Below are positions 1 to 30,137 of a stretch of DNA of 32,177 bases, piece after piece; position 1 is the first letter of the stretch, and every line of letters begins with the position of its first letter. The stretch is from Coriobacteriia bacterium (GTDB taxonomy: Bacteria > Actinomycetota > Coriobacteriia > Anaerosomatales > PALSA-660), in contig JAHEXP010000014.1 in NCBI GenBank assembly GCA_023252055.1, positions 1-32,177 of the forward strand, read 5' to 3'. The position numbers were made by a program, and so were the translations under genes. The notes beneath the pieces were generated by a model. It was not told the DNA's origin and searched no databases. It was given only the letters and a program-made list of their open reading frames with translations.

Positions 1-1224
1 AAGCTGATCCCCGCGGACCACGTCGCGGGCTATGCGGGCAAGCCGCACGCGGTCGACTCCGCCGCGGACGCGAATCGCTGCCTCATGTGCCACACGGCGC
101 AGAGCTGCGACGACTGCCACCTGCGGCAGAAAGTGAACACGCCCGCCACGCAGCCCGCCTACAGACCACTGCTCCCGAACAAGCCGCGAGACCCGGTCAT
201 CAAGGTGATGCCGACCGGCATCGTGACGATGGGCCAGTGCGTCCAGTGCCACCCGGACCTCGACCGCTACGTCCCGGGCCGGGTGATCTTCGCGCACGCG
301 ACGCACCTCCAGAAGGCGTTCGCCTGCAAGGACTGCCACCGGGCGTTCCCGCACGGTCCCGACACCACGACGCGGCCGGACATGCCCGCGTGCTACCAGT
401 GCCACGGCCTCACGCATGCGAAGCTCGGCCTGGTCGCATCCGAGGCGTGTGCCTCGTGCCATCCGAAGGACTTCGTACTCAGGCCGGTGGATCACACAGC
501 CGCCTTCGTCGCCAAAACGCACAAAGACGCGGCGAACACTTCGCCCGAGCAGTGCGCGATGTGCCACGCCTCGGACTTCTGCGTCGCATGCCACCAGGGC
601 CAGCCGAAGGTGCCGGGCGGTCCGGCTCGCCAGCAGGTCATCCCGTCCGGTCACCGCCTTCCGAAGTTCCGGGCGACGCACGGCAAGGAGTTCCTCGGGC
701 AGAAGGGCGTGTGCGGTTCCTGCCACGTCTCTGCGTTCTGTGAGGGGTGCCACAAGACGCCGATGCCGCATCCCGCGGACTGGACGTCGTCGCACCCGCT
801 CGCCAAGGGCCTCGACGCCCAGGACTGCAAGGTCTGCCACGTGAACCGGCAGACATGTGAGGAGTGCCACCACCGCAACCTGCGCGGCACCGAGCTCACG
901 CTCGCGAACTGCGTGAAGTGCCACCCGGTCATGGCGAACAAGCCAGCTACTGCGATCAAGCCCTCGGGTCTGGCGGAGCACGCCGTGCATTTCGACGTGG
1001 CGCTGCCGTCAAAGAAGGGCAAGCCCTACAAGTGCGAGCAGTGCCACATCGGGTTCGGTTTCACCGCTGCCCGTGCGGCAGGCGTGAGCTCCCCTTTGAA
1101 CGGCGGGCATGATCTTCGCTCGTGCTACGAGTGCCATGGGGCGCTGGACATCAACAACACCCAGGTCGCCCCGTTCCCGGGCAACTCCTTGTGCCTGCGG
1201 TGCCACAGCGACCTTCACCTGTAG
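1..1224 (+). CDS. Multihaem c-type cytochrome, 5'-truncated by window edge
   Basis: The reading frame is open from base 1, so the start and any signal peptide lie outside the window; 407 residues are visible. Sixteen CXXCH haem-attachment motifs occur, the first (CLMCH) at visible residues 27-31 and the last (CLRCH) close to the C-terminus. Four are tight doublets with 4-5 residues between motifs (for example CAMCHASDFCVACH and CGSCHVSAFCEGCH), a spacing typical of closely stacked haem pairs. Many extra His residues could be distal ligands. By family knowledge such proteins carry electrons in the periplasm, cell wall or outside the cell. The next genes encode a TPR protein and an NHL propeller, fitting an electron-export or cytochrome-assembly locus. 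I cannot assign it to a named cytochrome such as OmcS or OmcE. The haem count is a minimum because the N-terminus is missing. Confidence 0.95.
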   Translation, partial: KLIPADHVAGYAGKPHAVDSAADANRCLMCHTAQSCDDCHLRQKVNTPATQPAYRPLLPNKPRDPVIKVMPTGIVTMGQCVQCHPDLDRYVPGRVIFAHATHLQKAFACKDCHRAFPHGPDTTTRPDMPACYQCHGLTHAKLGLVASEACASCHPKDFVLRPVDHTAAFVAKTHKDAANTSPEQCAMCHASDFCVACHQGQPKVPGGPARQQVIPSGHRLPKFRATHGKEFLGQKGVCGSCHVSAFCEGCHKTPMPHPADWTSSHPLAKGLDAQDCKVCHVNRQTCEECHHRNLRGTELTLANCVKCHPVMANKPATAIKPSGLAEHAVHFDVALPSKKGKPYKCEQCHIGFGFTAARAAGVSSPLNGGHDLRSCYECHGALDINNTQVAPFPGNSLCLRCHSDLHL

Positions 1225-1279
1225 ACCGGCTCCTGGCGCAAGCCCGGCCACGATCTTTCGAGACGATGGATGGGAACCG

Positions 1280-2389
1280 ATGCAAGACACTGACGACAAC
1301 ACGGACATGAACGTGGAAGCCGCGCCCGACGACGCCGAGGCCCACGAGCCCTCCGCCCCGCAGTCGCCCGCGTTCGGGCCGCGCTCGGCTCCGGGCGACC
1401 GCTGGATCAAAGTCGCCATCTACCTCGTGCTCGTCGCGATCGTCGCGGTCGCGGGCTACCTCGGGTGGACGTACTACGGCGACTACAAGATCGCGAGCAC
1501 GCAGTCGGTGGCCGCGCGCGCCGTCGCGAACCTCGAGAAGGTCGTGGCCAAGGCCCCGTCCGACCCGCAGGCGCGCGTGCAGCTGGCAGAGGCGCTGATG
1601 GCCAACAACCAGTCCGACGACGCGATCGCGCAGCTCGAGGCGGCGCTCAAGCTCAGCAAGGACAACATCACGGCGCTCACGGACCTCGGCCTGATCGCCA
1701 TGGACCGACGCGAGTGGAAGAAGGCCGAGACGTATTGGCTCCAGCTCGTGCAGCTCCTGAGCGGCGCCGAGATGTCGAACAAGGACCAGCGCCTCGCCGA
1801 CGTCTATTACTACCTGGGTACGACCTTGGTGGAGCAGCAGCGCTACGAGGAAGCGGTGGCGAACCTGAAGCAGTCGGTGCTCATCAAGCGCGACTCCTCG
1901 CCGGTCCACTACATGCTGTCCGTGGCCTACCAGCGCTTGGACCTGCCCGAGATGCAGCGTCAGGAGCTCGACACCGTTGTCGCCTTCGATCCGAAGCAGG
2001 CCCAGGCGAACTACGATCTCGGGCTTCTCGACCTGAGCGCAGGCGATACGGCCGAGGCGGCCGAACTGTTCCGGATCGCCGCGGACAACGCTCCGAGCGG
2101 CGTGACCGCACCCCAGGAGCAGCTCGCCAAGCTCGGCACAGCGAGCGATCGGCTTGCCGATGCCCAGAAGCTGGCGAGCAGCCAGCCGAAGAAGGCGCTG
2201 TCCGAGGCCCGCATCGCCGCGGCGCTGGATCCCGCCAACGCGGACGCCGTCAGCCTCGTGGCGAACCTGTGGGAGAAGAACGGCGACGCGAAGCGCGCGC
2301 AGAACGCCTGGGAGCGACTGCTGGAACTCGTCCCGGGCGACAGCACGGCGACCGCAGCGATCAAGCGACTGAGTGCGACGACCAAGTGA
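1280..2389 (+). CDS. Membrane-anchored TPR-repeat protein
   Basis: A 369-residue protein. I chose ATG 1280 (MQDTDDNTD) because the frame upstream of it overlaps the cytochrome and reads as a shadow; no strong ribosome binding site is visible. An acidic N-terminal tail of about 40 residues is followed by one hydrophobic helix (about residues 41-64, IYLVLVAIVAVAGYLGW). The rest, about 75-369, is helical with tetratricopeptide signatures: paired helices rich in Ala/Leu, phrases such as YYYLGTTLVEQQRYEEAV and ANYDLGLLDLSAGDTAEA, and a last repeat ending near residue 365. TPR domains are protein-interaction scaffolds. The likely topology is N-terminus inside, repeats outside. Sitting 55 bases after a multihaem cytochrome, it may help assemble or dock cytochromes, but no direct evidence for a partner is visible. 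Confidence 0.9.
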   Translation: MQDTDDNTDMNVEAAPDDAEAHEPSAPQSPAFGPRSAPGDRWIKVAIYLVLVAIVAVAGYLGWTYYGDYKIASTQSVAARAVANLEKVVAKAPSDPQARVQLAEALMANNQSDDAIAQLEAALKLSKDNITALTDLGLIAMDRREWKKAETYWLQLVQLLSGAEMSNKDQRLADVYYYLGTTLVEQQRYEEAVANLKQSVLIKRDSSPVHYMLSVAYQRLDLPEMQRQELDTVVAFDPKQAQANYDLGLLDLSAGDTAEAAELFRIAADNAPSGVTAPQEQLAKLGTASDRLADAQKLASSQPKKALSEARIAAALDPANADAVSLVANLWEKNGDAKRAQNAWERLLELVPGDSTATAAIKRLSATTK

Positions 2390-2399
2390 CGGAGCGCAG

Positions 2400-3908
2400 A
2401 TGACACCGAGCACCAGCCCCGAAGCCCCCATCTCGACGGGCGGCGCCATGGCCCGCGCGCGGACGCGCAGGCTCGTCCTGCTCGGCGTGCTGGCCCTCAT
2501 CCTGGCCGTGCTCAGCTACGCGGCCTACTACTACACGCAGAACCGCCGGCTCCCGATCCCCGAGGTCGTTGCCGGCGCTCAGAAGCTCGTGCCGCCGCAG
2601 TACCTCTATTCGTTCGCGGGCACCGGCGGCAACGCCATGACCAAGCCCACGGGCATCGCGGTCATCGGGCAGCGTGCGTACGTGACCGACTTCGCGTACC
2701 GCACGGTTCGCGCATACAGCCTGCAGGGCGACTTCCTCTTCGACTTCGGCGCCATCACGGATGGGGACCACACGCGGCTCGACAGCCCCGTCCACCTGGC
2801 GATCGGGCCTGACTCGACGGTGTGGGTCACCGACCGTAACCTTCGCGGCATCTACGTCTTCAACGAGGACGGCAAGTTCCTGCGCAAGTTCGTGCCGAAC
2901 GGAGACGCGGCCTTCTCGTGGTCACCGCTCGCGATCACGTTCGCGCCCAACGGCGACCTGTTCGTCACCGACGTCGGTGACTCGGACAACCACAGGGTCC
3001 TCGCGTTCTCGCCTGACGGGACACTGAAGGCGAAGTGGGGCAAGACCGCGCAGGTCACGAGCGTTTCCGACTCCCCGGGCGACTTCCTGTTCCCGAACGG
3101 GATCGCGGTCGCCGGCACGGGCCCGAGCGCACTCGTCTACGTCGCCGACGGCAACAACCGGCGCGTGCAGGTCTTCCGGCCGGACGGGACGTTCGTCCGT
3201 ATCATCAACACGTCCGGCACGCCGCGCGGTCTTGTCGTGGACGCGCAGCAGCGGCTCTACGTCGTGGACGCGCTCGCACACCGGGTGGACATCTACTCGG
3301 ACAAGGGCACCTCCCTCGCAACGTTCGGGGAGAACGGGACCGGCCCCGGCCAGTTCAACTTCCCGAACGACGTGACGCTCGACGCCAAGGGCCGCATCTT
3401 CATCTCGGACCGCGAGAACGACCAGGTCCAGGTGTGGGGCTTCGGCGTCGCGGAGATCCCCGGGGTCACGCAGGTGACGCCGGGCTCGGCGTGGTGGCTG
3501 TTGCTGCCGCTGCCGCTCCTCCTGCTCCCGCTGTTCCTGCGCCGCCGCCGCTTCGTCGCGACCCCTGACTTCATCGATGGGATGATCGCAGCGGACGTCG
3601 TACCGAAGATGGTGAACAAGCGCTGGCGCTGGGTCATGTCCGAGTCCGACGGGGCCCCCTACGCCGGCCGAGTCGCTGACGGCGTCGCCCTGAGCGACCT
3701 CCTGCATCCTGAGGCATATTCCACGACCGAGGCCGGACTCATCAAGACACGGCTGTCGACGACGCTCGAGACCGCCGGCCTCCTCGCGATGGCCAAGCGC
3801 TACCGGGTGCTGTGCACCGAGGACCCGACGCTGGCGCGCCTAGCGGCAGCACTCGGGATCGACGTCTACGACAGGGCGACCTGGCTGGAGCATTTCGGCA
3901 AGAAGTAG
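2400..3908 (+). CDS. NHL-repeat beta-propeller protein with two membrane helices and a cytoplasmic tail
   Basis: A 502-residue protein. ATG 2400 is preferred because GGAG at 2391-2394 lies five bases upstream and the frame further up only overlaps the TPR gene. Order of parts: a helix at about 21-44 (LVLLGVLALILAVLSYAAYY); about six NHL-type repeats at 60-355 with recurring phrases such as PTGIAV, VYVADGNNRRVQVF and RIFISDRENDQVQVWG; a second helix at about 362-383 (SAWWLLLPLPLLLLPLFL); an Arg-rich stop (RRRR); and about 119 residues predicted inside the cell. The propeller would therefore face outward. NHL propellers bind proteins or act as scaffolds. The tail ends with VLCTEDPTLARLAAALGIDV, which resembles the end of PIN-like domains, a weak similarity. 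Its position after the cytochrome and TPR genes suggests one operon. Confidence 0.9.
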   Translation: MTPSTSPEAPISTGGAMARARTRRLVLLGVLALILAVLSYAAYYYTQNRRLPIPEVVAGAQKLVPPQYLYSFAGTGGNAMTKPTGIAVIGQRAYVTDFAYRTVRAYSLQGDFLFDFGAITDGDHTRLDSPVHLAIGPDSTVWVTDRNLRGIYVFNEDGKFLRKFVPNGDAAFSWSPLAITFAPNGDLFVTDVGDSDNHRVLAFSPDGTLKAKWGKTAQVTSVSDSPGDFLFPNGIAVAGTGPSALVYVADGNNRRVQVFRPDGTFVRIINTSGTPRGLVVDAQQRLYVVDALAHRVDIYSDKGTSLATFGENGTGPGQFNFPNDVTLDAKGRIFISDRENDQVQVWGFGVAEIPGVTQVTPGSAWWLLLPLPLLLLPLFLRRRRFVATPDFIDGMIAADVVPKMVNKRWRWVMSESDGAPYAGRVADGVALSDLLHPEAYSTTEAGLIKTRLSTTLETAGLLAMAKRYRVLCTEDPTLARLAAALGIDVYDRATWLEHFGKK

Positions 3909-3985: not shown

Positions 3986-4069
3986 GATGGGCACGAATCG
4001 GCCGCTCCGTACTTTGGAGCGGGCGGCGCGCACCTCGGGACCGGCATCTCGCCGTGCGCGTTTGACAAC

Positions 4070-4215
4070 AGGAATACGCCTCCGAGCTCGGCGGACCTAC
4101 AGCGGTCGCGCCATGGACGTCGAGCCGGGGTGGCACGGGAAACCGTGTCGCCTCCCGACTTGGAAAGGTGGCGTACGCCGGAACCGGCCCCGACGGGGGT
4201 CTCGGTTGCGGCGTG
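4070..4215 (+). ncRNA. Candidate Moco (molybdenum/tungsten cofactor) RNA motif, putative riboswitch
   Basis: This part of the leader upstream of a molybdopterin enzyme gene resembles the Moco RNA motif as I remember it. It starts with a CCTCCGAGC...GGCGG element (4078-4093). A stem closed by a GNRA tetraloop follows, with CACGG, GAAA and CCGTG within 4134-4149 and flanking GG/CC pairs. Then comes a conserved-looking block TTGGAAAGGTGGCGTACGCC. The established role of the family is control of molybdenum cofactor synthesis, molybdate transport and molybdoenzyme genes according to cofactor supply. An intrinsic terminator starts 40 bases further on, a natural expression platform. I did not find a convincing antiterminator, and the boundaries are approximate. 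The call rests on remembered consensus; a covariance-model search would settle it. Confidence 0.6.
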
Positions 4216-4315: not shown

Positions 4316-4452
4316 CGCCCGTCGGTTGGGACCGAGAGCAGTCAAGAAGGGGGCAAGGGGCATCACAAACGGTCCACAAACGGGCCAGACCCGTCAGGCG
4401 GGACGTCGATCTTGGAACGGCCTCTTGATCCGGCAAAAGAGAGGGAAGAGGA

Positions 4453-7400
4453 ATGGGACAGCAGGATAAGGAAACAGGAAGGATGGAGCTTTCGCGGCGC
4501 GACTTTCTGAAAGTCAGCGCAGCGGGCGCAGCCGCGGTAGCGGCAATGGACTTCGCGCCTGCACCGGCGATGGCCCAGGTCACCTTCCATGGGGGCGACA
4601 CCGCCCTCGACAAGTTCCACACAACGTGTCCGTACTGCTCGGCGAGCTGCGGGCAGGTCATCGCGGTCGGTAACGTGACCAAGGACGTCTACGACGTCTA
4701 CGGCGACGTCGACTCCCCCGTGAACAACGGCGGCCTGTGCGCAAAGGGCGCCGGCGCGTTCCAGCTCGTGACGAACAAGCGCCGCATCGGCGCGTTCGCC
4801 GGCACGCACCCGGTCAACCCGCTCTTCGCATACGACCCCGCCTACGACAGCACCGGCGTCGCCTACAAGCGCACCGGCAACGGCGCGTGGAGCAAGATGC
4901 CGCTCCCGACCGCGCTGGACGAGATCGCGACCGGCCTTGTGACCGCCCGCGGGTCCATCACCCCGGGCCTTACCGCGACCAGCAACTCGCGTCACGTGCA
5001 GTTCTTCGGCTCGTCTCACATGAACAACGAGCAGAACTACACCTACCGCAAGCTGATCGCCCAGTTCGGCACGAGCCTGACGGAACATCAGGCCCGTATA
5101 TGACACTCGTCCACGGTGGCCGGTCTGGGCCGCGCATTCGGACGAGGATCGATGACGAACCACTGGAACGACATCGATAACTCATCGTTCATCCTGTGTT
5201 ACGGCGCCAACCCCGCCGAGAACCACCCGGCCTGCATGGCGCACATCAACGCCGCGCGCTTCGGGACGAAGAACGCCAAGCTCGTTGTCGTCGACCCGCG
5301 CCTGACCCGCACCGCTCGCCAGTGCGATCCGGCCCGTGGCGACTTCTTCGTGCGCATCCGCCCTGGCACGAACGTCGCGTTCACCAACGGTCTGCTCAAC
5401 TGGATCTTCAACAACATCGGTGCGTATGACGCGACCGCCGCGGCGAACATGCTCGCGTACCACAACGGCACCAACGCTGCGGCGCACCTGTCGGTGGCGC
5501 GCACGTTCATCGACGATGCAGGGACCACCCAGACGCTCAACGGCGCTGCTCTGGCGACTGCCAAGTACGATGGCGTCGCGACGGCGGACGCTGTCGGTCT
5601 GGTCGCCGGGTATCCGAAGTACTGTGACTCGCGCTTCAAGGTCAACGCCGCCGGCGACGACTACGAGCGTGCGATCCTCACCGGATCGGCGAACACGAAC
5701 TTCCTGACCGACCCTGCGTGGCGGTTCCCGGAGTTCCCCGTTATCGCCCCGAACGTGAACGACCCGGCGACGGTCTACCAGAAGCTCATCGCCCACGTTG
5801 CGCCGTACGACACCGCGACCGTGGCCGATATCTGCGGTTGCACCGAGACCGAGATCGCGAACGTCGCCAAGGTGATCGTGGATCACAGCCGCTTCAAGAG
5901 CAGCGACTTCGCAGCGACGACGGCGACCCCGCAGGCCACCACGTACAAGGCCACCACGATCCTGTATGCGATGGGCCAGACGCAGCACACGAACGGGTCC
6001 CAGAACATCAAGGACCTCGCCATCCTGCAGACGCTCATGGGCAACATGGGACGCGCCGGAGGCGGCATCAACGCGCTGCGCGGGATCCACAACGTCCAGG
6101 GCTCCACCGACTGGGGCCTGCTGTACGACTCCATCCCCGGCTACTCCGGGAACCCGGGCGTGAACGAGACCTACGCGCACTACTCCAACACGCTCTTCGG
6201 TAACCGGGTGCTCACGCTGCACAACACGCAGACCGGGTTCGACTCTGTTCCCAAGGCCTATACGACGCCGTCGAACCTCGGCCTCCAGCAGCGCGGCTTC
6301 CACAACATGACCGAGGAATGGTTCGCCAACGGCCAGGTCCCCGGCACGGATATCGACAAGCTGTACGACCTGTGGCCGAAGGGCAACGGCGTCCAGCACA
6401 TCCAGACCTTCCGTTACATGGCTCCCGGCACCGCCGCTGCGAACCTGATCAGCGCTGCCATGATCTGGGGCCAGAACCCGGCCGTTACCGAGCCGAACCA
6501 GTCCGCAGTCCGCCTCGGCCTCGCCAACCTCGACCTCATGGTCGTCGTCGACATGTTCGAGACCGAGACCGCGGCATGCGACCGCAAGGCCGGCGCGCCC
6601 ACGTACCTCATCCCGACCTGCTCGCACGTCGAGGAGGCCGGCAGCGTCACGAACTCGGGACGCTGGCTCCAGTGGCGCGAGCGCGCGACCACGCCGAAGG
6701 GCAACAGCAAGGCCGACATCGAGTTGATGCTCCGGTTCGCTTACGCCCTCGATAAGGCGAGCGCCTTCACCCACATCACGAACGTGCCGTACAACGGTCT
6801 CGGGACCGACGCGCCGTCCGCCGGCGTGTGGAGCACCCTGGCCACGCCCATCGCCGGGCCTGCGTACAAGGTGCTGTACGGCGACAAGTACGGCTGGACC
6901 CCCGGGGCCGACATCGAAGCAGTTTCGCTCACCAACGTCGACGTGTGGCACGCCGGTGCGTCGTCGCCGGTCATCGAGACGGTCACCGGTACCGAGGCTG
7001 TCTGCGAGACGATCTACCGCGAGTTCGCCCGTCCGCTGAACTACCTGGCTGACGGCACGGCCAGCGGCACGACCGGTGGCACGATGTGGATCTACTCCGG
7101 TTCGGGCACCGCGGGCGCGGGACCTGACGTCACGGGTGGATCCGGTTTCAACTTCGCCTACAACTTCAACCTCCTGCCGGCCGTCACAAGCGCGGGCAAC
7201 ACCGTGACGTGGCAGGTCAAGAACCGCGCCAAGAGCCGTAACAACGCCATCAAGGGCAACGACTCCAACGGCTCCAACAACTTCCCGCGTTGGGGATGGG
7301 CGTGGCTGCTCAACCGCCGCGTCTTCTACAACAACGGCGAGATCTCCGGCGACCAGGCGGACACGTTCGTGTCGCCGGGCGCAGTCAGCCTCATGTTCAC

Positions 7401-8133
7401 GGAGAAGGCCGCGCCGGACTCTGGTCTGACGGACTGGTCGGGGCTCTACCGCAAGTACAAGACGCTCAACGACATCCCGAGCGTGGTCCAGACGCCGGTG
7501 CCGACGAGCCCGCACTTCATCTCGCCCGGCGTGTCGCTGGCCGGTCGCTTCCCGGGCCACACGGAGCCGTACGAGTCTCCGCGCAACGACCTGGTCGCGA
7601 CATGGGGCCACAACAACACGGTCGTCGCCGGCAACAACAACCGTCTCGTGTGGGAGGGTGCGAACCCCTCTGCCGTCGGCACGGTCGCGAACTTCCCGTT
7701 GGTGCTGACCACCATCCGGTGCGTCGAGCACTTCCAGGGCGGCCCCATCACCCGCAACAACTCGTGGAACGTCGAAGCGGAGCCGGTGCCGTGGATCGAG
7801 ATCAACTCGGTCGACGCCCGTGCAGCAGTGCCGCCGATCAACGATGGTGACTGGGTCAACGTCATCACCGCTCGGTCGAACTCGACCAGCAATCAGGAGG
7901 CCGTTTCCCCGAACAGCGGTACCGGCTGGGCGCGCGGCTTCAAGGCCCGTGTCGGTGTCGGACTCCGGTCCAACCAGCGCGTCGCCCCCGGCGTCGTCGC
8001 GATCCCGTGGCACTGGGGTGACAAGGGGCTCTCGACCGGTTCGCGCGCGAACGACCTGTGCATCGACGCATGGGACGCGAACACGATGATCCCTGAGTAC
8101 AAGGCCTGTCTCTGCAAAATCGTGAAGCTGTAA
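4453..8133 (+). CDS. fdnG: Formate dehydrogenase catalytic subunit, selenocysteine-containing, Tat-exported
   Basis: Read through an in-frame TGA at 5101-5103, this is one protein of 1226 residues with selenocysteine at 217. ATG 4453 has GAGGGA six bases upstream. The N-terminus has a Tat signal (SRRDFLK, Arg15-Arg16) with likely cleavage after AMA41. The [4Fe-4S] ligands are Cys59, 62, 66 and 96, followed by Lys98 (CAKG), as in formate dehydrogenases. The residue encoded by TGA precedes HSSTVAGL and FGRGSMTNHWNDI, the FDH-N active-site neighbourhood. ALRGIHNVQGSTDWG and the C-terminal PEYKACL are also FDH-N signatures. The enzyme would oxidise formate (or reduce CO2) at a bis-molybdopterin Mo or W centre outside the membrane. 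It is about 200 residues longer than E. coli FdnG, partly from an Asn/Thr/Gly-rich insertion at about 880-960. The two genes downstream are the electron-transfer partners. The gene symbol is by homology. Confidence 0.95.
5101..5140 (+). promoter_or_regulatory. Selenocysteine UGA codon and bacterial-type SECIS hairpin
   Basis: The TGA at 5101-5103 is followed by a hairpin in the coding sequence. GTGGCC (5116-5121) pairs with GGGCCGC (within 5127-5133), allowing one G-U pair, around an apical loop containing GGTCT (5122-5126). A GGUCU loop placed about 18 bases after the UGA is the hallmark of the E. coli fdhF and fdnG SECIS elements bound by SelB. The reading frame before and after the TGA is in phase, and the flanking residues match the formate dehydrogenase active site. 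The selA, selB, selC and selD genes are not in the window. Confidence 0.88.
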
Positions 8134-8146
8134 GGGAGGTGGCATA

Positions 8147-9055
8147 GTGCCCAACGAAATGGCGATACTTCAACTGGTCGACAAGTGCGTGCGCTGCAAC
8201 GGCTGTGTCATCTCCTGCAAGCGGACGTGGCATATGAAGGGGATCGTCCCTTCGAACGATCTGCCGCATCAGAGGCTTGCGGAGAACCAGCGTGTGGTCA
8301 TCAAATCGCAGAAGCGAGTGGACATGGGCCCGTTCGTGAGGTTCAGCTGCTGGCACTGCGAGAACCCCCCGTGCGCCGGTCGCTGCCCGTTCAAGGCGAT
8401 CAAGAAGAACACGGTCACCGGCGCTGTCTGGATCGATCCGAACCTCTGCAATCCGGACGACCCGAAGTGCGTGCGGCAGTGCAAGATCGACTGCCAGCGT
8501 GGCGGCGTCCCGATGATCGGCGTGGGTTCGGACCTGTTCGCCACCGCCAAGGCGTGGAAGTGCACGCTGTGCACCGGCACGTACACCGGGGCCCCGTACG
8601 TGGGAGCCGGCGTCGGCGGCGACCTGCCCACCAAGTCCCCCGTGGTCGGCGGCAACTTCGTCTCGCCGCTGTACCCGGCCGACGCGACCAACATCCCCGA
8701 GCTGGAGCACCAGCCCAGCTGCGTCTACACATGCCCGGCAAAGGCGATGGTCTACGACACTCGCGAGAACGTCATCAAGTACATCCTGGACCCCGCCAAC
8801 GGCTTCAACACCTCGACGTCTTCCCGGTTCGGCGACGGTTCGATGTTCTGGGCGTCGGCGAAGTTCAACGTGGCGCCGCCGAAGGCGGACCCGTTCATGG
8901 AGGACCACATCTCGCCCATGGTCAGCAGCCTGCTGTCCAGCCCGTTCGCCAAGGCCGCACTCGCCCCGACGCTCGTCGTCGGCGGCCTGCTCGCTCTGGC
9001 GGCTCGTCGTGCGAAGATGGAAGAGGAAGCTTCAATGGCAGGGGGGGAGCGGTGA
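8147..9055 (+). CDS. fdnH: Formate dehydrogenase iron-sulfur (beta) subunit, FdnH-like
   Basis: A 302-residue ferredoxin-like protein starting at GTG 8147, with a strong AGGGAGGTGG site at 8133-8142; it begins 13 bases after the catalytic subunit stop. It has sixteen cysteines in the pattern expected for four [4Fe-4S] clusters: CVRCNGCVISC at 14-24, CWHCENPPCAGRC, CNPDDPKCVRQCKIDC, WKCTLC and SCVYTC. Near the C-terminus is a hydrophobic helix (ALAPTLVVGGLLALAA) followed by RR, matching the single membrane anchor of FdnH. There is no Tat signal; in the family the beta subunit is exported together with the signal-bearing alpha subunit. It passes electrons from the molybdenum or tungsten site to the next carrier, here most likely the hexahaem cytochrome encoded immediately downstream. 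The gene symbol is by homology. Confidence 0.93.
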   Translation: MPNEMAILQLVDKCVRCNGCVISCKRTWHMKGIVPSNDLPHQRLAENQRVVIKSQKRVDMGPFVRFSCWHCENPPCAGRCPFKAIKKNTVTGAVWIDPNLCNPDDPKCVRQCKIDCQRGGVPMIGVGSDLFATAKAWKCTLCTGTYTGAPYVGAGVGGDLPTKSPVVGGNFVSPLYPADATNIPELEHQPSCVYTCPAKAMVYDTRENVIKYILDPANGFNTSTSSRFGDGSMFWASAKFNVAPPKADPFMEDHISPMVSSLLSSPFAKAALAPTLVVGGLLALAARRAKMEEEASMAGGER

Positions 9056-10339: not shown

Positions 10340-10426
10340 CATGCATGCGGTACGGTTCGAAGTGAACAGGCCAGAAGCCGCGCCGGACGCGGGGCCGATG
10401 ACGACGTGAAGGGCGGTGGGAGCGAT

Positions 10427-11845
10427 ATGACGAACGGCTTCTCGCGAGCCGCCTGGCCCGCATCGCTCGCACTCGGCTTCGCACTGTTCATCGGCATGTC
10501 GGTATCGTTGGCGGGCCGCCTGCCCGCCGCCGCGCTCGCGACCGCGCAGGTACTCGGGACCCTGGGATGCGCCCTGATCCTGGCGGGCCGCCCCATCGCG
10601 GCGGTCCGAGCGCTCGACAGCCGTTCGCGGGTGTGGGCGTGCGGCGCGGGGCTCCTCGGCGTGTTCGGTCCTGTTGCCGTGATCTCGAGCGCCCGGATGT
10701 CTGACGCGCCCGCCGGATCGGTGGTCGTCTTCTGGATCGCGGGAGGTTGGGCGCTCGCCGCGGCGGTTCTCGGAGCATGGATCTTGTGGCGAGACCGCCG
10801 GGGCACACGCGCGGGACTCACCCTCGCCGGTGGCCTGGTGGCCATCACAGGCGTCGCAGGCGTCGTCGCGAACTGGGAACGACCGTCGTCGTTCTCTCCG
10901 CTCGTGCAGTTCCCGGCACGCGAGGTGGCCATCCTTGCGGCCGGCGCGTTGCTGTTGGCCGGGGCTGTCGCGCTTGCGAAGGCGGCCGGCACCCGCGGAC
11001 GCGACGGTGCGCTCGTCTGCGCGGCTGCCGCAGCGGTGGTGGCCGGCGCAGTCTGGTGGGCCGTCGACGCTCCGGCGCGTGGCCTGTCGTCGTTGACGGA
11101 ACAAGCGGTGCCGGTCGCACTTCTGGCGATCGCGTGGGGCGTCGTGTGGGTATGCCTGCCGCGCGTTCTCGAGGCGGGCGGACCCCCGCGTCTGGCGGCG
11201 ATCCTCGCCGCGGCACCTGTTGCGCTGTCCACTCTCACGTGGCTCGAGCTGACCGTCGGTGTCGCCGGTCCGCAGCCGCTGATCGCGAGCGGAGTGCTGG
11301 CGGGGGCGGTCACGGTCGCCGCCGGTTCCGTGGTGCTGTGGTGGTCCGTGGACGCGGAGTCCGCCTCCCCCGGGAACGCGGCTCTTCGCATCGTCCGTTG
11401 GTTGCCGGCTGTGGCTGCCGTCATCGCCTTGGCGATGCCGGCCGTCGTTGCTCAGGCGGACGTGAACGGGGTGGCGGGATCCTTCGCCGGATCGTGGACC
11501 CTGCTGGGATGGGAGTCGGTCGCCGGCCTGACCGCTGCGGCCCTATGCACGCTGCTGGTCGCAGCGGCCGTCGTGCGCCGCCCCATGCTGCCTGCGCTCG
11601 CCGGCCTCGTGGCGTGCGCCGCGTGGACGTGGTCCCTCGGCGTGCCGATGCACGTTCTGACCGGCTGGCTGCCCGCCGGCATCGAGCAGTACTACGGGAC
11701 GGAGTATGGTTCGATCGACTTCACGACGGTCTTTTCGCCACTCATGGTCGCAGCGGTCGTCGGCTGCGCCGTGGGGCTGATGGTTGTCATCGTCTCGCAC
11801 GCCCGGCAGCGCCTCGTGGCGTCCGCCGATCAGTCAGGAAAGTGA
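10427..11845 (+). CDS. Polytopic membrane protein of unknown function
   Basis: A 472-residue, very hydrophobic protein with roughly 12 predicted membrane helices joined by short loops. ATG 10427 has GGTGGGAG just upstream; a GTG at 10406 is less likely. I do not recognise a family with confidence. The N-terminal third (LLGVFGPVAVISSARMSDAP, then an alternating helix pattern) faintly recalls EamA/DMT transporters. The loop before the last helix (GIEQYYGTEYGSIDFTT) is the longest and most polar part. There are no haem, metal or ATP motifs. It is followed nine bases later by a lipoprotein and then an NHL propeller, so it probably forms the membrane base of that module. It lies between cytochrome genes, so a role in membrane electron transfer or cytochrome export is possible but not shown. 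Confidence 0.8.
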   Translation: MTNGFSRAAWPASLALGFALFIGMSVSLAGRLPAAALATAQVLGTLGCALILAGRPIAAVRALDSRSRVWACGAGLLGVFGPVAVISSARMSDAPAGSVVVFWIAGGWALAAAVLGAWILWRDRRGTRAGLTLAGGLVAITGVAGVVANWERPSSFSPLVQFPAREVAILAAGALLLAGAVALAKAAGTRGRDGALVCAAAAAVVAGAVWWAVDAPARGLSSLTEQAVPVALLAIAWGVVWVCLPRVLEAGGPPRLAAILAAAPVALSTLTWLELTVGVAGPQPLIASGVLAGAVTVAAGSVVLWWSVDAESASPGNAALRIVRWLPAVAAVIALAMPAVVAQADVNGVAGSFAGSWTLLGWESVAGLTAAALCTLLVAAAVVRRPMLPALAGLVACAAWTWSLGVPMHVLTGWLPAGIEQYYGTEYGSIDFTTVFSPLMVAAVVGCAVGLMVVIVSHARQRLVASADQSGK

Positions 11846-11854
11846 CGGTCACAC

Positions 11855-12694
11855 ATGACCCGACGCATCAACGCCATCCTCGTCCTTCTCGTACTCGCGG
11901 GCAGTCTCGCTCTCGGCGGCTGCGCCCGGACCGTTCGCGTCGAGACCGGCGAACTGGTCACCTGCACCTACGGCGAGGTCGTCACCGACACGGTCAAGGT
12001 CGTCGAAGTGCCCGCCGACAAGGCCGCTTCGTACCACGTCGTCAAGAAGACCGTCACGTGCGACCGGCACAAGCACCTCGAGGACCTCTACGCTCAGGCC
12101 CAAGCCGCGATATTGGCGGCCGATCTCGACGCTGCCAAGGCGAAGCTGGCCGAGATCGTGAAGCAGGACGCCGCGTTCAAGCGCGCTCAGGCGCAGCTGG
12201 ACGCGATCCAGGCGGGCAAGGCCCCTGTTCCCGACAACGGGGCGTCCACCGGCGGTGCGAACACGGGAACCGGTGGCACGGGCGACAAGCAGCCGGTCGG
12301 TCCGATAGCGAACCTGAGCGACAGGCTCCCGGACTCGCTGCCCGGGTACACCGCCGCACCGATCTCCTCCGACGTGTTCAACCTCTCGCGGCAGTACACG
12401 CCGTCCGATGGCTCGCCCACCGACTCGCTCGTGGTGGTCGTCGAGCAGTACAAGGACGCGACTGCAGCGAAGAAGGCGATCTCGGCGGAGGTCACGAGCG
12501 GCTACCGCGAGGACGTCTCCACCGCCAAGGTGGCGGGGCGCACGGTGCGCTTCGGGACCGACGGACGACGGTTCGCGACGCTCGTCTGGAACGAAGGCGG
12601 CGTGCTGATCGCCATCGAAGCGTCCTCTGCATCGCGCAAACCCGAGAATCTCAAGAGTCACCTGGTCTCGCTCGCAGCCGAGATCGTGAAGTGA
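11855..12694 (+). CDS. Lipoprotein with helical middle and C-terminal alpha/beta domain
   Basis: A 279-residue protein with a lipoprotein signal: MTRR, a hydrophobic core, and the lipobox LALGGC, with the lipidated Cys near residue 24. A strand-rich part (about 30-65) with CTYGEVVTDTVKVVEV and a further CDRHKH is followed by an Ala/Lys-rich helical hairpin (about 68-120, QAAILAADLDAAKAKLAEIV) that looks like a TPR or coiled-coil unit. A Gly/Thr linker (about 130-145) leads to a compact C-terminal domain of about 130 residues ending at SLAAEIVK. No catalytic motif is visible. The start is nine bases after the membrane protein, and its stop is one base before the next start, so the three genes are co-transcribed. 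It would sit on the outer face of the membrane. Function unknown. Confidence 0.85.
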   Translation: MTRRINAILVLLVLAGSLALGGCARTVRVETGELVTCTYGEVVTDTVKVVEVPADKAASYHVVKKTVTCDRHKHLEDLYAQAQAAILAADLDAAKAKLAEIVKQDAAFKRAQAQLDAIQAGKAPVPDNGASTGGANTGTGGTGDKQPVGPIANLSDRLPDSLPGYTAAPISSDVFNLSRQYTPSDGSPTDSLVVVVEQYKDATAAKKAISAEVTSGYREDVSTAKVAGRTVRFGTDGRRFATLVWNEGGVLIAIEASSASRKPENLKSHLVSLAAEIVK

Positions 12695-12695
12695 C

Positions 12696-13907
12696 GTGAC
12701 GTCCCCGACCGAGGACGGCGATCTGTTCCAGGCAGCGGAGGCCTCGGCCGAAGATCGCCGCGAAGCGCAGCGCCAAGGGATGCGCGCGGCGCGGCGGGCG
12801 CGGGCCGTTGCGGTCGCCCCGTGGGCAGGCGCCGTCGTGTTGGCCGCCGCTGCGGTGGCCTGCGCCGTGGCCGCATCAGCCCCTCTCGCGGTGCCGGGAG
12901 CACCAGGCTCGGCGGGGACCGCGAGCCCGGTCCTGAAGGTGGACCGTGTTCTGGCGTCCGCCGAGGCGACGCAGGGGGCACCCACGGGGGTGGCGGTCTC
13001 GGGAGACCGGGTGTACGTGGCGGACCCCACCCGCGGTTCGGTAAGCGTGCTCGATAGGGACGGCAACAGGCTGGCCACCATCGGCGCCGGGTTCCTGCGC
13101 ACTCCGGTCTACGTCGCAGTGGGACCGGTCGATGGGCGCATCTATGTCAGCGACCGGGGCCGCGGACAGGTCGTGGTGTTCGCTCAGGACGGCACACGGT
13201 TCGGCACTCTGTCGCCGATGGGGCTGCGCCCCGGAAACTCGCGCGGCGGGGCGTGGCGGCCACTCGCTATCGCATTCGCCCCCGACGGCACCCTGTACGT
13301 GGCCGACTCGGGCCCCCGCCAGGTGATCGATGTGTTCTCACCTGCCGGTAGCCGCATCGCGACGATCGGCGCCGACGCCCCGATCGGCAGGACGGGGCAG
13401 CGTCTGGCCTTCGTGAACGGCATCGTGGCATCCGCCGACAGGGTGGTGGTCGCGGACAGCAACAACGGACGCCTGCTGGTCTTCGGCCGTGACGGGTCGT
13501 TCCGCAGCGCGATCCCACGCGACGGCCTGCCGCGCGGGCTTGCGGTGACCGACGCCGGCCGCATCCTGGTGACCGGCGTCGGCAGCCCGGCGGTCACGGT
13601 CTTGAGCGCTTCGGGCGCACCGATGCAGCAGCTCGCCGGCGGTGTGGGCGAGCGCGAGAGGTTCGCTTCGCCGGCGGGGATGGCCACAGCACGTGACGGT
13701 TCGGTCTACGTCGCGGACTCCGGGTCCGGCCGGGTCTTCGTCCTGCGGACGGGGGATGGCGCCATCGGCGGGCGTGCCGCTGCGGCGATGTCCCGGACGC
13801 TTGAGATCGTGTTCTCGATCATCGCCGCGGTGGGAGCAGCCGCGCTCGCCGCGTTCGGCGTGGTCCGTGCACGCGCGCGTGTACGCGAGGCCGGGGTCAC
13901 GCTATAA
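12696..13907 (+). CDS. Second NHL-repeat beta-propeller protein, membrane-anchored
   Basis: A 403-residue protein with a GTG start at 12696, one base after the lipoprotein stop; the tight coupling supports this start although no clear ribosome binding site is visible. A charged N-terminal tail of about 40 residues precedes a helix (about 44-65, VVLAAAAVACAVAASAPLAV). NHL repeats fill about 80-350, with the recurring pattern VYVADPTRGSVSVLDRDG, LYVADSGPRQVIDVFSPAG, VVVADSNNGRLLVFGRDG and VYVADSGSGRVFVL. A second helix (about 370-390, IVFSIIAAVGAAALAAFGVV) is followed by a short Arg-rich tail. The layout matches the NHL protein of 2400-3908, but the cytoplasmic tail is only about 12 residues. 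It is likely an outward-facing scaffold or binding platform associated with the cytochromes. Confidence 0.9.
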   Translation: MTSPTEDGDLFQAAEASAEDRREAQRQGMRAARRARAVAVAPWAGAVVLAAAAVACAVAASAPLAVPGAPGSAGTASPVLKVDRVLASAEATQGAPTGVAVSGDRVYVADPTRGSVSVLDRDGNRLATIGAGFLRTPVYVAVGPVDGRIYVSDRGRGQVVVFAQDGTRFGTLSPMGLRPGNSRGGAWRPLAIAFAPDGTLYVADSGPRQVIDVFSPAGSRIATIGADAPIGRTGQRLAFVNGIVASADRVVVADSNNGRLLVFGRDGSFRSAIPRDGLPRGLAVTDAGRILVTGVGSPAVTVLSASGAPMQQLAGGVGERERFASPAGMATARDGSVYVADSGSGRVFVLRTGDGAIGGRAAAAMSRTLEIVFSIIAAVGAAALAAFGVVRARARVREAGVTL

Positions 13908-14102: not shown

Positions 14103-17100
14103 GTGCAGGTGAAGCGCACCATACGCACCGCGGCACACGCCGCCGTGGCTTTGATAGCCGCGGCTTTCGTCGTGGGTACCGTGAGCACGGCCTTCGCGGT
14201 CGCGCCGCATGTCCCGACGTCCGGATCCACCGACTCCTGCGCCATGTGCCATCGCGCCCACACGGCCGACACTCCGGTGCCGTACCGCACCGTCGAGACG
14301 ACCGAGACGACGGGAACCTCGCTCATCCTCTCGACCGATCCCGCCCGGGGCGATGTGGAGCTCTGTCTTGCGTGTCACGGCGTCGCCCAACTGGGGAGCA
14401 ACAAAGATGTCCAAACGGCGTTCCTGAAGCCCTCGATCCATTCGCTGGCCCCGACGTCGTCACCCTACGGTCCCGACCCGAAGATGTGTTCCAGCTGCCA
14501 CGATCCCCACGGGACCGACCGCACGAGTGGCGGCTCCACGTGGCCGGCGCTCCTGCGTTCGTACTCCGACGAATCGACGACCCCGGTGTTCACGGGCGAG
14601 GCGTACTGCGCCACCTGCCACACCGTGCAGCCCGGCGAGCGCTGGGCCGGGCTCGACGTCTACCTCCGCACCGGCCACTACAGCGGCATACCGATGCCCG
14701 GTAGCGGCACGGGCATCAGGTGCGACATCTGCCACGCACCTCACGGCAGCGACGTGGCTCCGCTGTTGGCGCCCTCGCTTGTTCCGACGTCGGTCGTGAG
14801 CACGTTCACGGTGACGGCCGACGACCGGACGATGTGCGAAGCGTGTCATGCGGGTGCGAGTGCGACGTGGCAGAACGCCGCGACGTATGCGACATCGGGC
14901 CATGCCCTTTCTTCCAAGACGGTGACGATCACCGCCAAGTGGGTGCCGGCAGGCCAGCGCAAGGTGGGCGAGTGTCAGGTCTGCCACGCGCCGATGGGCC
15001 GCAGCGACGGCAGCGGCGGCACGATCCCCAAGCTGCTCGACGCGAAGGGCCGGGTGCTGTGCGACCGCTGCCATGTCGCCGGACCTGACGCTGTCGCTTC
15101 CACGGACACTTCGTCCCAAGGCAGGCCCGTCGTCGGCGCGTTGACGCTTGCGGCGGTGTACGCGCCCGAGAGCGGTGCCGCCGCGCGCGTGGAGCTCTAC
15201 GGTCGCGCCGCTTCGGGAGCCGGTGCCTTGTCCGGGCCGCGCCAGTACCAGCCGTCGGTCGGAGCAGGCCCCTCGGCTGCGGGTGACATCGACGGGGACG
15301 GGACGGCCGAGCTCGTGGTCGCCTCGCTCACGCAACCCACGATCACCATCTACCGCGTCGACCCGCTCACCGGACTCGGCCTCGATCCCACCGTGTGTGC
15401 GATCCCGGGCGTGTCGCCGGTCCCGGCGGCCGCCATCGCCGTCTCGAACGTCGTCGACGCTCTGTTCCAAGGATCTCGCCGTGAGATCTCGGTGCTGGGC
15501 AGCGACGGCTCACTGTCCCTGTACGATCTGTCGGGTGCTTCTCTGCTTCCGGTCGCTGGACCGTTCGCCATGGGCGCCGGTCCGTGGGGCATGGCGAGCG
15601 GGGACTTCACCGGGACCGCTCTCGCGGATCTCGTCGTCACCGACGCCGTCGGCGGGACCGCGTACGCCGTGTCCGACGATGGGGCGCACGGCGCTTCTTC
15701 GGTCGCCTGGGCAGTCGGCGGTGCGCCCGTGGCTCCCGCTGTGGGCGACGTTTGGGACGCCGCTCCGTCCACCAACGAGGTCGTGATCTGCGACACGGTG
15801 TCGGTGCTCAGCACCGTCCGGATCTTCGACGGTTCCGGCGTGCAACTCGCCGCGTATCCCCTGACCGCCACCGGCGCCGGCTCACCGACGGCGTCTGCGA
15901 TCGGTGATCTCCTTCCGGCGGTTCCCGCGGCCGACAGGGACGAACTCGCTGTCGCCTTCTCGAACATCGTGACGGGCTCGTCCAGCGTGTTCGTCGTCCC
16001 GCAGCTCTCGGCGGGTACCGGTCTCGACATCGCCGCGGCCACGGAGTTCACGTCCGGCGCCGGCACGCACACCGGGTCGCTGATCATCGGCGATGTGGAC
16101 GGCAACGGAAGAGCCGATCTGGTCGCCGGCGACGGCGGCACGTGGGCACCCGTGGGCTCATCCTCGGCGCCGGCGGTTCGCATCTGGCGCTCGAACGGCG
16201 CCGGTACCGCGCTCGTCTCCTCGCCGGAGACTCTGGGCGGCGGCGGCACCGAGATCGCCGGGTCGGCACCGTCGCTCGCGCTCGCCGATCTCGGGCCGGT
16301 GTTCCCCTCGCGTCATCCGGTCGACGAGGTGACCGCGCCGGGCTCGCAGCACGTTTCGACCGAGACCGCATCGGCCGGGCGGCACGTGACCTGCTCGGAC
16401 TGCCACGATAGTCACGAAGCGGCCGCCGCCGTCACCGTCGCGCCGGCCGTCCAGGGCGTGCTGCGAGGCGCGTGGGGCGTCGTCGGGGCCACCACCGGCC
16501 GCTCGAGCACGAGCTACGGGATCTGCTACAAGTGCCACTCCGCTTTCACCGATCTCGGCGGGCGTCCCGACGCAGCGGTGCAGTTCGACCCGTCGAACGC
16601 TTCGGTGCACGCGATCACACAGGCATCGACCTCGACGGTCCCGGCCGCCACGTTCGTCACCGGTTCGGGTTGGGCTGCGGACTCGGTGCTCTACTGCACC
16701 GACTGCCACGCGGACGATGGCCGCAACGGCGCTCAGGCAAAGGGGCTGCACGAGTCCGCATCCGCACCCATCCTGGCCGCGCCCTACCTGACAGCGGCTC
16801 CCGATGCCACGGGTTCGTTGTGCTATCGCTGTCACCGGTTCGACGTGTACGGCGACGGTTCCACAGACGGTCCGGGCATGAGCTTGTTCCGCACCACCGG
16901 CGCCACCCCGAAACTGCTGCATTCGGAGCACGGTGCGGCAGTGGCCGGCGGCCGCGGGATCGCATGCTCGGCGTGCCATGTGTCACACGGGTCGGTCACC
17001 GAGCCGCACCTGCTGCGCGACGACATCGGCTTCGTGAGTACCGCTGCGGACGCCGGGACCTGCACGAACACCTGTCACAGCGGGACTCCGAGGTCCTGGC

Positions 17101-17111
17101 CTCTGCCGTAG
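14103..17111 (+). CDS. Large secreted multihaem cytochrome with internal FG-GAP/VCBS beta-propeller
   Basis: A protein of 1002 residues from GTG 14103, or 1000 from GTG 14109; neither has a good ribosome binding site. A signal peptide (TAAHAAVALIAAAFVVGTVS, cleavage near AFA-VA) is followed by eight CXXCH motifs up to about residue 323 (CAMCH, CLACH, CSSCH, CATCH, CDICH, CEACH, CQVCH, CDRCH). Residues of about 370-735 carry FG-GAP/VCBS repeats with calcium-loop-like phrases: GDIDGDGTAELVVA, GDFTGTALADLVVTD and GDVDGNGRADLVAGDGG. Five more CXXCH motifs follow from about 763 (CSDCH, CYKCH, CTDCH, CYRCH, CSACH). The chain ends with CTNTCH, a CX3CH variant. CSSCHDPHGT and CDICHAPHGS are doubled-CXXCH-type signatures. 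There is no membrane anchor or sorting signal at the C-terminus. It probably works outside the cell as an electron carrier, with the propeller mediating protein or surface contact. Confidence 0.93.
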   Translation: MQVKRTIRTAAHAAVALIAAAFVVGTVSTAFAVAPHVPTSGSTDSCAMCHRAHTADTPVPYRTVETTETTGTSLILSTDPARGDVELCLACHGVAQLGSNKDVQTAFLKPSIHSLAPTSSPYGPDPKMCSSCHDPHGTDRTSGGSTWPALLRSYSDESTTPVFTGEAYCATCHTVQPGERWAGLDVYLRTGHYSGIPMPGSGTGIRCDICHAPHGSDVAPLLAPSLVPTSVVSTFTVTADDRTMCEACHAGASATWQNAATYATSGHALSSKTVTITAKWVPAGQRKVGECQVCHAPMGRSDGSGGTIPKLLDAKGRVLCDRCHVAGPDAVASTDTSSQGRPVVGALTLAAVYAPESGAAARVELYGRAASGAGALSGPRQYQPSVGAGPSAAGDIDGDGTAELVVASLTQPTITIYRVDPLTGLGLDPTVCAIPGVSPVPAAAIAVSNVVDALFQGSRREISVLGSDGSLSLYDLSGASLLPVAGPFAMGAGPWGMASGDFTGTALADLVVTDAVGGTAYAVSDDGAHGASSVAWAVGGAPVAPAVGDVWDAAPSTNEVVICDTVSVLSTVRIFDGSGVQLAAYPLTATGAGSPTASAIGDLLPAVPAADRDELAVAFSNIVTGSSSVFVVPQLSAGTGLDIAAATEFTSGAGTHTGSLIIGDVDGNGRADLVAGDGGTWAPVGSSSAPAVRIWRSNGAGTALVSSPETLGGGGTEIAGSAPSLALADLGPVFPSRHPVDEVTAPGSQHVSTETASAGRHVTCSDCHDSHEAAAAVTVAPAVQGVLRGAWGVVGATTGRSSTSYGICYKCHSAFTDLGGRPDAAVQFDPSNASVHAITQASTSTVPAATFVTGSGWAADSVLYCTDCHADDGRNGAQAKGLHESASAPILAAPYLTAAPDATGSLCYRCHRFDVYGDGSTDGPGMSLFRTTGATPKLLHSEHGAAVAGGRGIACSACHVSHGSVTEPHLLRDDIGFVSTAADAGTCTNTCHSGTPRSWPLP

Positions 17112-17187: not shown

Positions 17188-17263
17188 AGCATGCGCGTAG
17201 CGTAGACTCTTATGCGGTAGCCGAGTCACGCCATGCATGGTCGTTCGAAGCGAGGGGGAGCGG

Positions 17264-18094
17264 ATGGAGGGCCAGGCCCCACAGGGCACGGCGGGGGATG
17301 CAACGCGCCTCATCGCCCAGGTCGAGCGGGATCGCGGCATCGATCTCTCCCAGTACCGGCTCTCCTATGTCGAGCGCAGGCTGGCGACCCGTCTGAGGGC
17401 ACTCGACCTCGTCACATACCGCCAGTATGGTCAGTACCTCCTCGACCACACCGAGGAGTACACGCGGCTGCTGGATACGCTCACCGTGAACGTGACCGAC
17501 TTCTTCCGCGACCCTCCCGTGTGGAAGATCATCCGCGGCGAGGTCATCCCCGCGCTCATCACCGCGAAGACCGCCAACGGGCAGCGTACGATCCGTGTGT
17601 GGTCCGCGGGATGTGCCACCGGCGAGGAGCCGTACTCGCTCACGATGGCGTTCCTGACCGAGCTCGGAGACGCCGCCAAGTCGTTCATCGTGAGCGTCGC
17701 CGCCACCGACCTCGACCCGGTCGCTCTCCAGACCGCCCAGCGGGCCGAATACGACGTCGCGAAGCTCGAGCACCTGCCCGGTCCCGACCGCGTGCGGTTC
17801 ACCGTCAACGACGGCCGCCGTTTCACGATCAAGCCCGAGGTCACCGAACATGTCCGGTTCCGGAAGATGAACCTGTTCAGCGACGCGCCGCCGCTCGCGA
17901 TCGATCTCATCCTGTGCCGCAACGTGTTCATCTATTTCACGCGCGAGCAGCAGGAACGGATCATCAACGTCTTCCACAAGTCGCTCGCCCGCGGCGGGTA
18001 CCTCGTCCTCGGACGGACCGAGAAGATGCCGAACGGAGCGGCCGCGGGCTTCGAACCGATCTCGTCCAAAGAGCGCATATACCGGAAGATCTGA
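17264..18094 (+). CDS. cheR: Chemotaxis protein methyltransferase CheR
   Basis: A 276-residue protein, the usual CheR length. ATG 17264 is chosen over ATG 17237 because GAGGGGGAG (17252-17260) lies just before it. The N-terminal helical domain (about 1-75) includes [13 protein letters not shown]. The methyltransferase domain contains [11 protein letters not shown], the SAM-binding motif [14 protein letters not shown] (about 113-126) and [11 protein letters not shown], ending with [11 protein letters not shown]. It methylates receptor glutamates using S-adenosylmethionine in the cytoplasm and works against CheB. It is the first gene of the che operon. No pentapeptide-binding TPR extension is present, and the adjacent receptor lacks an obvious C-terminal tether, consistent with direct binding to methylation helices. 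Confidence 0.96.
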
Positions 18095-18236
18095 AGGCCC
18101 CAGGCCGGGCCGGCACAGTATCTTGTGTAGAAGAGGTGCCGTTCGGCCGATGGATAGTCGTAGAATCCCTTATGGGGTGTGCATGTGGCGGGCCGCGCGG
18201 AAACGGGTGCGGTCCCTGGCGAGGAGGGGTCTTAAG

Positions 18237-19562
18237 GTGGCGCAGCGCAGCACCATCAAGGTCGAGGAGAGTCTCGCCCGTACGTTCATGATCAAGACGT
18301 GGCTCTCGATCGGCCCGGCGGTAGGAGCCGGCCTCGTGGTCACGGCTGTCGTCGGCGTGGTCATGCTGAAGCCGGAGGTCGGTCAGGTCCTGCTCCTCAT
18401 CGGGCTCGGCGGCGTCATCATGGCGATCGCGGCGTACTTCGGTCAGAGGGCGTACATGGCAGCCTTCACGGAGCGAATCCTCGGGCCGCTGTCCGAGGTC
18501 GGCGCCGTGATGTCGAAGGCGGGCGACGGTGACCTCACCGCCGCAGGCGCCATCCACCATCCCGACGAGATCGGCCTGCTGGCCGACGAATGCAACCGCC
18601 TGATCGAGTCGCTGGCCTTCATCGCTTCCGGCGTCAGGCACTCCGCAGAGTCCGTCGCGGCTGCCGCCACTGAGCTCTCGGCTTCCTCCGAGGAGATCAG
18701 CGCTTCGACGATGGAGATCTCGAACTCCGTGCAGCACATCGCGCACGGCGCGGAGCTTCAGTCCCGCAAGGTCGAAGAGACCACCGCGGCCGTCGAGGCG
18801 ATCGCGCAGACGATCAACAGCGTCTCCGATCAGGCGATCGAGACCCAGCGCATCAGCCAGGAGGCGGCGCGCCAGGCCGACCACGGCCGCGCCGCCACCG
18901 ACGAGGCGTGCACGAAGATCGGCGAGGTCCAGCAATCGATCGAGACGCTGGCAGCCTCGGTCGAGCTCTTGGGCCGTCGCAGCGACGAGATCGGCAAGAT
19001 CGTCGACGTGATCACGTCCATCGCCGATCAGACGAACCTGCTCTCCCTCAACGCCGCCATCGAGGCGGCGCGGGCCGGAGAGTCCGGGCGCGGCTTCGCG
19101 GTCGTCGCCGAAGAGGTCCGCAAGCTCGCCGAGGGTTCCGGCAAGGCCGCCGAGCAGATCGGCGAGCTCATCAAGGAAGTCCAGCACGAGACCGCCAAGG
19201 CGGTCCGCCTCATGGAGATCGGCCAGCGCGAGATGGCGATGGGGACCGAGGTCGTCGGGCGCACCGGCGCCGCCCTCATCGAGATCGACGAGGCCGTCGC
19301 CCGCACGGCCGAGCTCGCCGACCGCATCGCACAGGCGATGACCGACCAGCGCGAGCGCGCAGCTTCCGTCGACCGCGCGATGCACGATATCGCGTCGGTC
19401 GTCGAGGAGAACGCCGCGGCCGTCGAGGAGACAGCGGCCGCCGCCGAGGAGCAGACCGCCTGCATGGAGGAGATCTCGTCTTCCGCAGCCGACCTCGCCG
19501 ACATGTCGCACCAGCTTGAGGAGTCGGTCCGGCAGCTTCGCCTGCAGGGCGATGTCGCGTGA
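18237..19562 (+). CDS. Methyl-accepting chemotaxis protein with almost no extracellular domain
   Basis: A 441-residue protein. GTG 18237 is preferred because GAGGAGGGG (18221-18229) lies seven bases upstream; the longer upstream frame is Arg-rich and lacks such a site. Two membrane helices at about 22-43 and 51-68 are separated by only some seven residues, so there is no sensory domain outside. A HAMP-like region (about 72-125) leads to a long coiled-coil signalling domain. Its hairpin tip is intact: [20 protein letters not shown] then [20 protein letters not shown] and RKLAEGS. Gln/Glu pairs in the helices could be methylated. It couples to CheA through CheW, encoded next with a GTGA overlap. 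With no ligand domain it may sense membrane state or redox conditions, or work through a partner protein. The 142-base gap before it has a TAGAAT at 18161-18166 with no clear -35. Confidence 0.95.
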
Positions 19563-20407: not shown

Positions 20408-20423
20408 ACGGCTGACACACCAC

Positions 20424-30024: not shown

Positions 30025-30137
30025 AAGGCGCTCAGCTCCGCGTCGAGCGTCGCGGTACCATGTGGGGGTCCGGGAACCGGTCGCCCACGCTGCGACCTTC
30101 CAGCGGCTCACCTTCTGAAGTAGGGCGGTCAGCGACG

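Follow-up and report, generated by a model that had tools for sequence, protein, structure and literature searches.

The gene at positions 4453-8133 of the 32,177-nucleotide stretch of DNA analyzed here (the window), which comes from a subsurface-type actinobacterium of the Coriobacteriia, very probably encodes a selenocysteine (Sec)-containing formate dehydrogenase (FDH), in which an in-frame UGA is decoded as Sec. The features that carry this reading are:

4453 to 8133, plus strand: fdhA/fdnG-like formate dehydrogenase alpha subunit, 1226 aa, predicted Sec217
5101 to 5103, plus strand: UGA codon predicted to be read as selenocysteine, residue 217 (aligned with FdnG U196; TGA in the clade orthologs spanning the site)
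5098 to 5156, plus strand: bacterial SECIS, SECIS_3-like, with a 7-bp lower stem (CUCGUCC/GGACGAG), an upper stem and an apical GGUCUG loop

The frame opens at ATG 4453, with the ribosome-binding-like stretch GAGGGAAGAGGA 5' of it, and closes with a TAA ending at 8133. Its sole interruption is TGA 5101-5103, and the product has 1226 residues with the UGA residue counted. Reading of the open frames thus returned the coordinates, the frame, the TGA and the length of the joined protein exactly as an earlier note on this DNA had given them. As that note also anticipated, a standard gene caller breaks the gene in two at TGA 5101, which is what would be expected if this TGA were a genuine stop or a mutation that disables the gene, leaving a pseudogene or two separate genes. 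We regard this as extremely improbable. The coding statistics carry on past the TGA, the GC3 values on its two sides (0.87 and 0.90) revealing a shared codon-position bias, and the 1009 codons 3' of it would remain open by chance with p of approximately 10^-9.3 at the given base composition. Moreover, the second half by itself would have neither the Tat signal nor the Fe-S domain, every clade ortholog spanning the site has a single TGA at the same active-site codon, and both a SECIS and a full Sec machinery are present.

To place the UGA codon in the protein, we aligned the product with Escherichia coli FdnG (from NC_000913) and some 90 other FDHs. The residues around it (HQARI-U-HSSTVAGL) correspond to the Sec site of FDH-N and the tungsten enzyme W-FDH, and U217 and H218 fall on U196 and H197 of FdnG, in agreement with the active-site match and the conserved following His proposed earlier. 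R543 and K98 are likewise equivalent to R446 and K94 of FdnG, and the [4Fe-4S] Cys ligands C59 and C66, equivalent to FdnG C50 and C57, are conserved in both groups aligned. A class-wide search found the gene in 40 of 149 genomes, every carrier belonging to the order of the window (Anaerosomatales/OPB41), and each match spanning the site contained a single TGA, located at the Sec codon. This TGA is shared by all independent MAGs from the genus and order of the window (L022, L029, L030, L023-L027, L032 and many more), and the UGA gene is also carried by the relative G029. Among the relatives read, TGC was limited to three distant homologs (L072, L088 and L093).

These comparisons bear on the possibility of a sequencing or assembly error masking a real TGC or TGT (Cys) codon, which the earlier note had named as one of the observations that would speak against its reading. 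The window does come from a single draft genome that is about 75% complete, and Cys forms do occur in the three distant homologs. However, TGA is found in every independent MAG of this genus and order, and the GGUCU loop of the SECIS is retained here whereas it is lost in 2 of the 3 Cys-type homologs, which leaves an error with next to no likelihood. Sequencing error, pseudogene and a change of the genetic code were all considered and rejected.

Two side observations were made on other FDH genes. In another clade, 2 closely related Coriobacteriia FDHs (L088:9604 and L097:9604) have TGC and TGA, respectively, at the Sec codon, a pair that appears to represent a recent Sec/Cys exchange; its Cys-type member retains a SECIS-like loop. 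In addition, L027 has tandem FDH copies at 4425 and 10710 (G010 C316); the two copies share the UGA and are each preceded by a Moco riboswitch.

The RNA immediately downstream of the UGA forms a 7-bp and a 6-bp stem, separated by an internal loop and capped by the GGUCUG loop, with a z-score of approximately -2.4 (3 of 200 shuffled sequences folded equally well). Its match to Rfam SECIS_3 (RF01989) scores 32.4 bits (E = 2e-4), short of the gathering score of 63, and its GGUCU loop has the same spacing from the UGA as the AGUCU loop of E. coli fdnG. Base-pair covariation, judged from pair counts, was modest, because the stem overlaps conserved coding sequence and the upper stem shifts in register. 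Codon usage offers the clearest sign of selection at the RNA level: the glycine in the loop (G224) is encoded by GGT in 29 of 29 orthologs, and 14 other conserved glycines used as a control are mostly GGC or have mixed codons. In the window genes, GGT accounts for 70 of 441 glycine codons. One of the 14 control glycines, the leading Gly of FGRG, is encoded by GGA in 22 of 24 sequences; its codon belongs to the 3' side of the lower stem of the SECIS, and this preference is compatible with selection on the stem.

The organism's own draft genome (G000, 1.44 Mb) also contains the Sec system that the earlier note had predicted for it, distributed over the contigs C44 and C95:

C95, 22394 to 22486: tRNA-Sec, 71.6 bits (above the gathering score), anticodon tca (UCA) by ARAGORN
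C44, 986 to 2344: selA, 609.8 bits
C44, 2920 to 3873 (L018): selD, 374.7 bits
C44 end and C95 end: N-terminal and C-terminal pieces, respectively, of selB

No exact contig-end overlap between C44 and C95 joins the 2 selB pieces, which are consistent with a single gene spanning the contig gap. The selD gene carries an in-frame TGA of its own (LSSKAG-U-AAKYG), falling on the known Sec position of SelD. The UxxK motif supports this position (PMC13188914), and the genome therefore encodes at least 2 selenoproteins. The tRNA-Sec was found in 32 of 41 relatives, several of them without this FDH, and 4 relatives carrying the UGA gene gave weak tRNA-Sec matches, which we put down to incomplete assemblies. 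Because of these FDH-less genomes and weak-match carriers, co-occurrence of tRNA-Sec and FDH is not a clean test. Decoding of the UGA as a different residue (Trp or Cys, for example), whether through a suppressor or near-cognate tRNA or under a changed genetic code, would be compatible with the frame taken alone. It is nevertheless very improbable, since UGA terminates other genes of the window (for instance the beta subunit, TGA 9053-9055), and the UGA in question occupies a known Sec position, is followed by a SECIS and is accompanied by a tRNA-Sec with the UCA anticodon and by SelA, SelB and SelD.

As to the kind of FDH, the predicted alpha subunit has a Tat signal (SRRDFLK), a molybdopterin Fe4S4 domain with the N-terminal [4Fe-4S] motif, and molybdopterin oxidoreductase and dinucleotide-binding domains, which are the domains of a bis-PGD Mo/W enzyme. 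It scores 437.7 bits against TIGR01553 (FDH-N), missing the equivalog cut-off of 814. The earlier identification as a Sec-containing formate dehydrogenase is supported, and its likeness to FDH-N holds only in a divergent form: the protein is a divergent relative, FDH-N-like and not to be filed as FDH-N. In the alignment, its 1226 residues exceed the approximately 1015 of FdnG through many insertions of 8 to 23 residues, with no single added domain. The closest solved structures by sequence are Desulfovibrio gigas/Desulfovibrio vulgaris W-FDH and E. coli FDH-N, and a fold search with an AF2 model of moderate confidence (mean pLDDT 60) returned the same relatives, so that the model seems to contribute no more than an FDH-like fold. 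A plasmid search gave nothing beyond distant FdnG matches.

The gene is embedded in a cluster of predicted electron-transfer genes:

85 to 1224, plus strand: multiheme cytochrome truncated at the start of the contig, with 15 CxxCH remaining (20 in full-length relatives)
1109 to 2389, plus strand: TPR protein, true start probably inside the ORF
2373 to 3908, plus strand: NHL-repeat membrane protein, upstream of FDH
4068 to 4186, plus strand: Mo/W cofactor (Moco) riboswitch in the FDH leader, RF01055, 69.5 bits against a gathering score of 36
8147 to 9055, plus strand: electron-transfer beta subunit, 302 aa, with 16 Cys, four [4Fe-4S] motifs and a C-terminal TM helix
9052 to 10251, plus strand: secreted c-type cytochrome with 6 CxxCH, about 399 aa
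10406 to 11845, plus strand: polytopic membrane protein, cluster-conserved, motif WERPSSFS
11855 to 12694, plus strand: putative lipoprotein, cluster-conserved
12696 to 13907, plus strand: NHL-repeat protein
14103 to 17111, plus strand: multiheme cytochrome with 13 CxxCH and FG-GAP repeats

The riboswitch was present upstream of FDH in 9 of 9 relatives searched, and an ortholog of the beta subunit (45% to 80% identity) adjoins FDH in the relatives. The GTG start of the hexaheme cytochrome overlaps the stop of the beta-subunit gene (GTGA, 9052-9055), and no Pfam family matched the membrane protein at 10406-11845. Across the order the genes follow each other as 20-heme cytochrome, TPR, NHL, riboswitch, FDH, Fe-S subunit, hexaheme cytochrome, membrane protein, lipoprotein, NHL and FG-GAP multiheme cytochrome. 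In the relatives the cluster is headed, about 8 kb upstream, by a cytochrome b561 of the FdnI family (PF01292), and 2 more multiheme cytochromes lie upstream as well. A cut ortholog of this b561 is found at the start of C95 (C95:5-322, minus strand). C95 therefore probably adjoins the window on its upstream side, which would place the tRNA-Sec approximately 30 kb from FDH; in G011 and G033 the two are 34 kb and 31 kb apart, respectively, on one contig. The SECIS, the Moco riboswitch and the cytochrome cluster, all of them absent from the earlier note, support the reading of the gene as a Sec-FDH. Elsewhere in the window, an apparent chemotaxis operon (17237-24680, plus strand; cheR, MCP, cheW, cheY, cheB, cheA, cheC and cheD, named by eye from the translations) follows directly on the cytochrome cluster, and near 30100-31235 there is a PilT-like gene.

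We propose that SelA, SelB, SelD and the tRNA-Sec of the host would insert Sec at the UGA (residue 217), directed by the SECIS hairpin immediately downstream. The alpha subunit, with a Mo- or W-bis-PGD cofactor, would be exported via Tat and pair with the four-cluster Fe-S subunit (8147-9055), and the riboswitch would tune expression to the Mo/W cofactor. Most likely, formate would be oxidized outside the membrane, and electrons would travel through the [4Fe-4S] clusters of the alpha and beta subunits to the c-type cytochromes of the cluster and on to an external acceptor, for instance Fe(III). The frame, the Sec site, the catalytic residues, the export signal, the SECIS, the sel genes, the riboswitch and the conservation of the cluster are read directly from sequence, whereas Sec incorporation, the catalytic direction, the choice between Mo and W and the electron path are what we infer.

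A Sec molybdoenzyme with another substrate or direction, such as a CO2 reductase serving the reductive glycine pathway, is an unlikely but appreciable alternative to a respiratory formate oxidase. A Mo-FDH of Anaerosomatales has been assigned to CO2 reduction in that pathway (PMC9686372), and only one FDH was found in the organism's own draft genome. The Tat signal, however, would put the enzyme outside the cytoplasm, away from formate-THF ligase, and its neighbors are secreted cytochromes, both of which speak for the respiratory oxidase. Cultured Anaerosomatales grow on or oxidize formate with Fe(III) or sulfur compounds as acceptors (PMC9686372).

For the electrons released by such an oxidase, the path may lead directly to the cytochromes, or via cytochrome b561 and quinone. 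The failure to detect quinones in the isolates (PMC9686372) prompted us to consider a quinone-free route. MqnA-type genes are present in 25 of 41 relatives and UbiA-type genes in 37 of 41, and therefore the quinone-free route stays one of two options; the Mqn gene is mostly absent from the window's own genus. Taken alone, the cytochrome route is the one towards which we lean slightly. The broader proposal, that an order-wide clade of outsized Sec-FDHs passes electrons directly to surface multihemes without a dedicated FdnI/quinone step, is tentative and less likely than not. If true, the direct route would give the Gram-positive Anaerosomatales a formate-to-mineral respiratory module controlled by a Moco riboswitch.

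In the phylogenetic tree, the window protein groups with 23 order-mates in a single clade that has a support of 100 and a long stem (1.37 changes per site), and a second Sec-FDH clade of Coriobacteriia stands apart from it. The clade of the window protein is restricted to the order. No bacterial selenoprotein is more widespread than the FDH alpha subunit (PMC5029168, PMC13188914). The use of UGA for Sec in an FDH is ordinary and well known; the cytochrome neighborhood is uncommon. The window FDH would accordingly be a divergent, order-specific addition to the known Sec-FDHs. For annotation, this means that a caller stopping at UGA severs the catalytic half from the Tat signal and Fe-S domain throughout the clade. 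For physiology, it would tie formate respiration in Anaerosomatales to the supply of selenium, and the conserved FDH-multiheme cluster identified here is testable in cultured species.

Among known systems, the predicted enzyme resembles E. coli FDH-N (FdnGHI; PDB 1kqf) in its Sec-His site, the equivalents of Arg446 and Lys94, the N-terminal [4Fe-4S] motif and Tat export, as well as in its four-cluster beta subunit with a C-terminal TM helix and in the register of the SECIS apical loop. It differs from FdnGHI in the size of the alpha subunit and in missing the TIGR01553 cut-off, and the cluster differs from the fdnGHI operon in having no fdnI beside the beta gene, where the hexaheme cytochrome is found instead, b561 being far upstream in the relatives. 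Formate dehydrogenases with a cytochrome c3 subunit exist in Desulfovibrio. The Desulfovibrio W-FDH (FdhAB; PDB 1h0h, 6sdr) is the top match by both sequence and fold, and shares the Sec site and the extracytoplasmic alpha/beta pair; unlike FdhAB, to which it is approximately 24% identical in the fold alignment, the window protein has multiheme cytochromes together with NHL and TPR proteins as neighbors. Parvivirga hydrogeniphila, of the same order, is a formate-oxidizing Fe(III) reducer, described without mention of selenocysteine, whose authors link a cluster of multiheme cytochrome and molybdopterin oxidoreductase genes to Fe(III) reduction (PMC9686372). That cluster (MCL4079376-90) is like the one in the window in that a molybdopterin oxidoreductase lies amid multiheme cytochromes.
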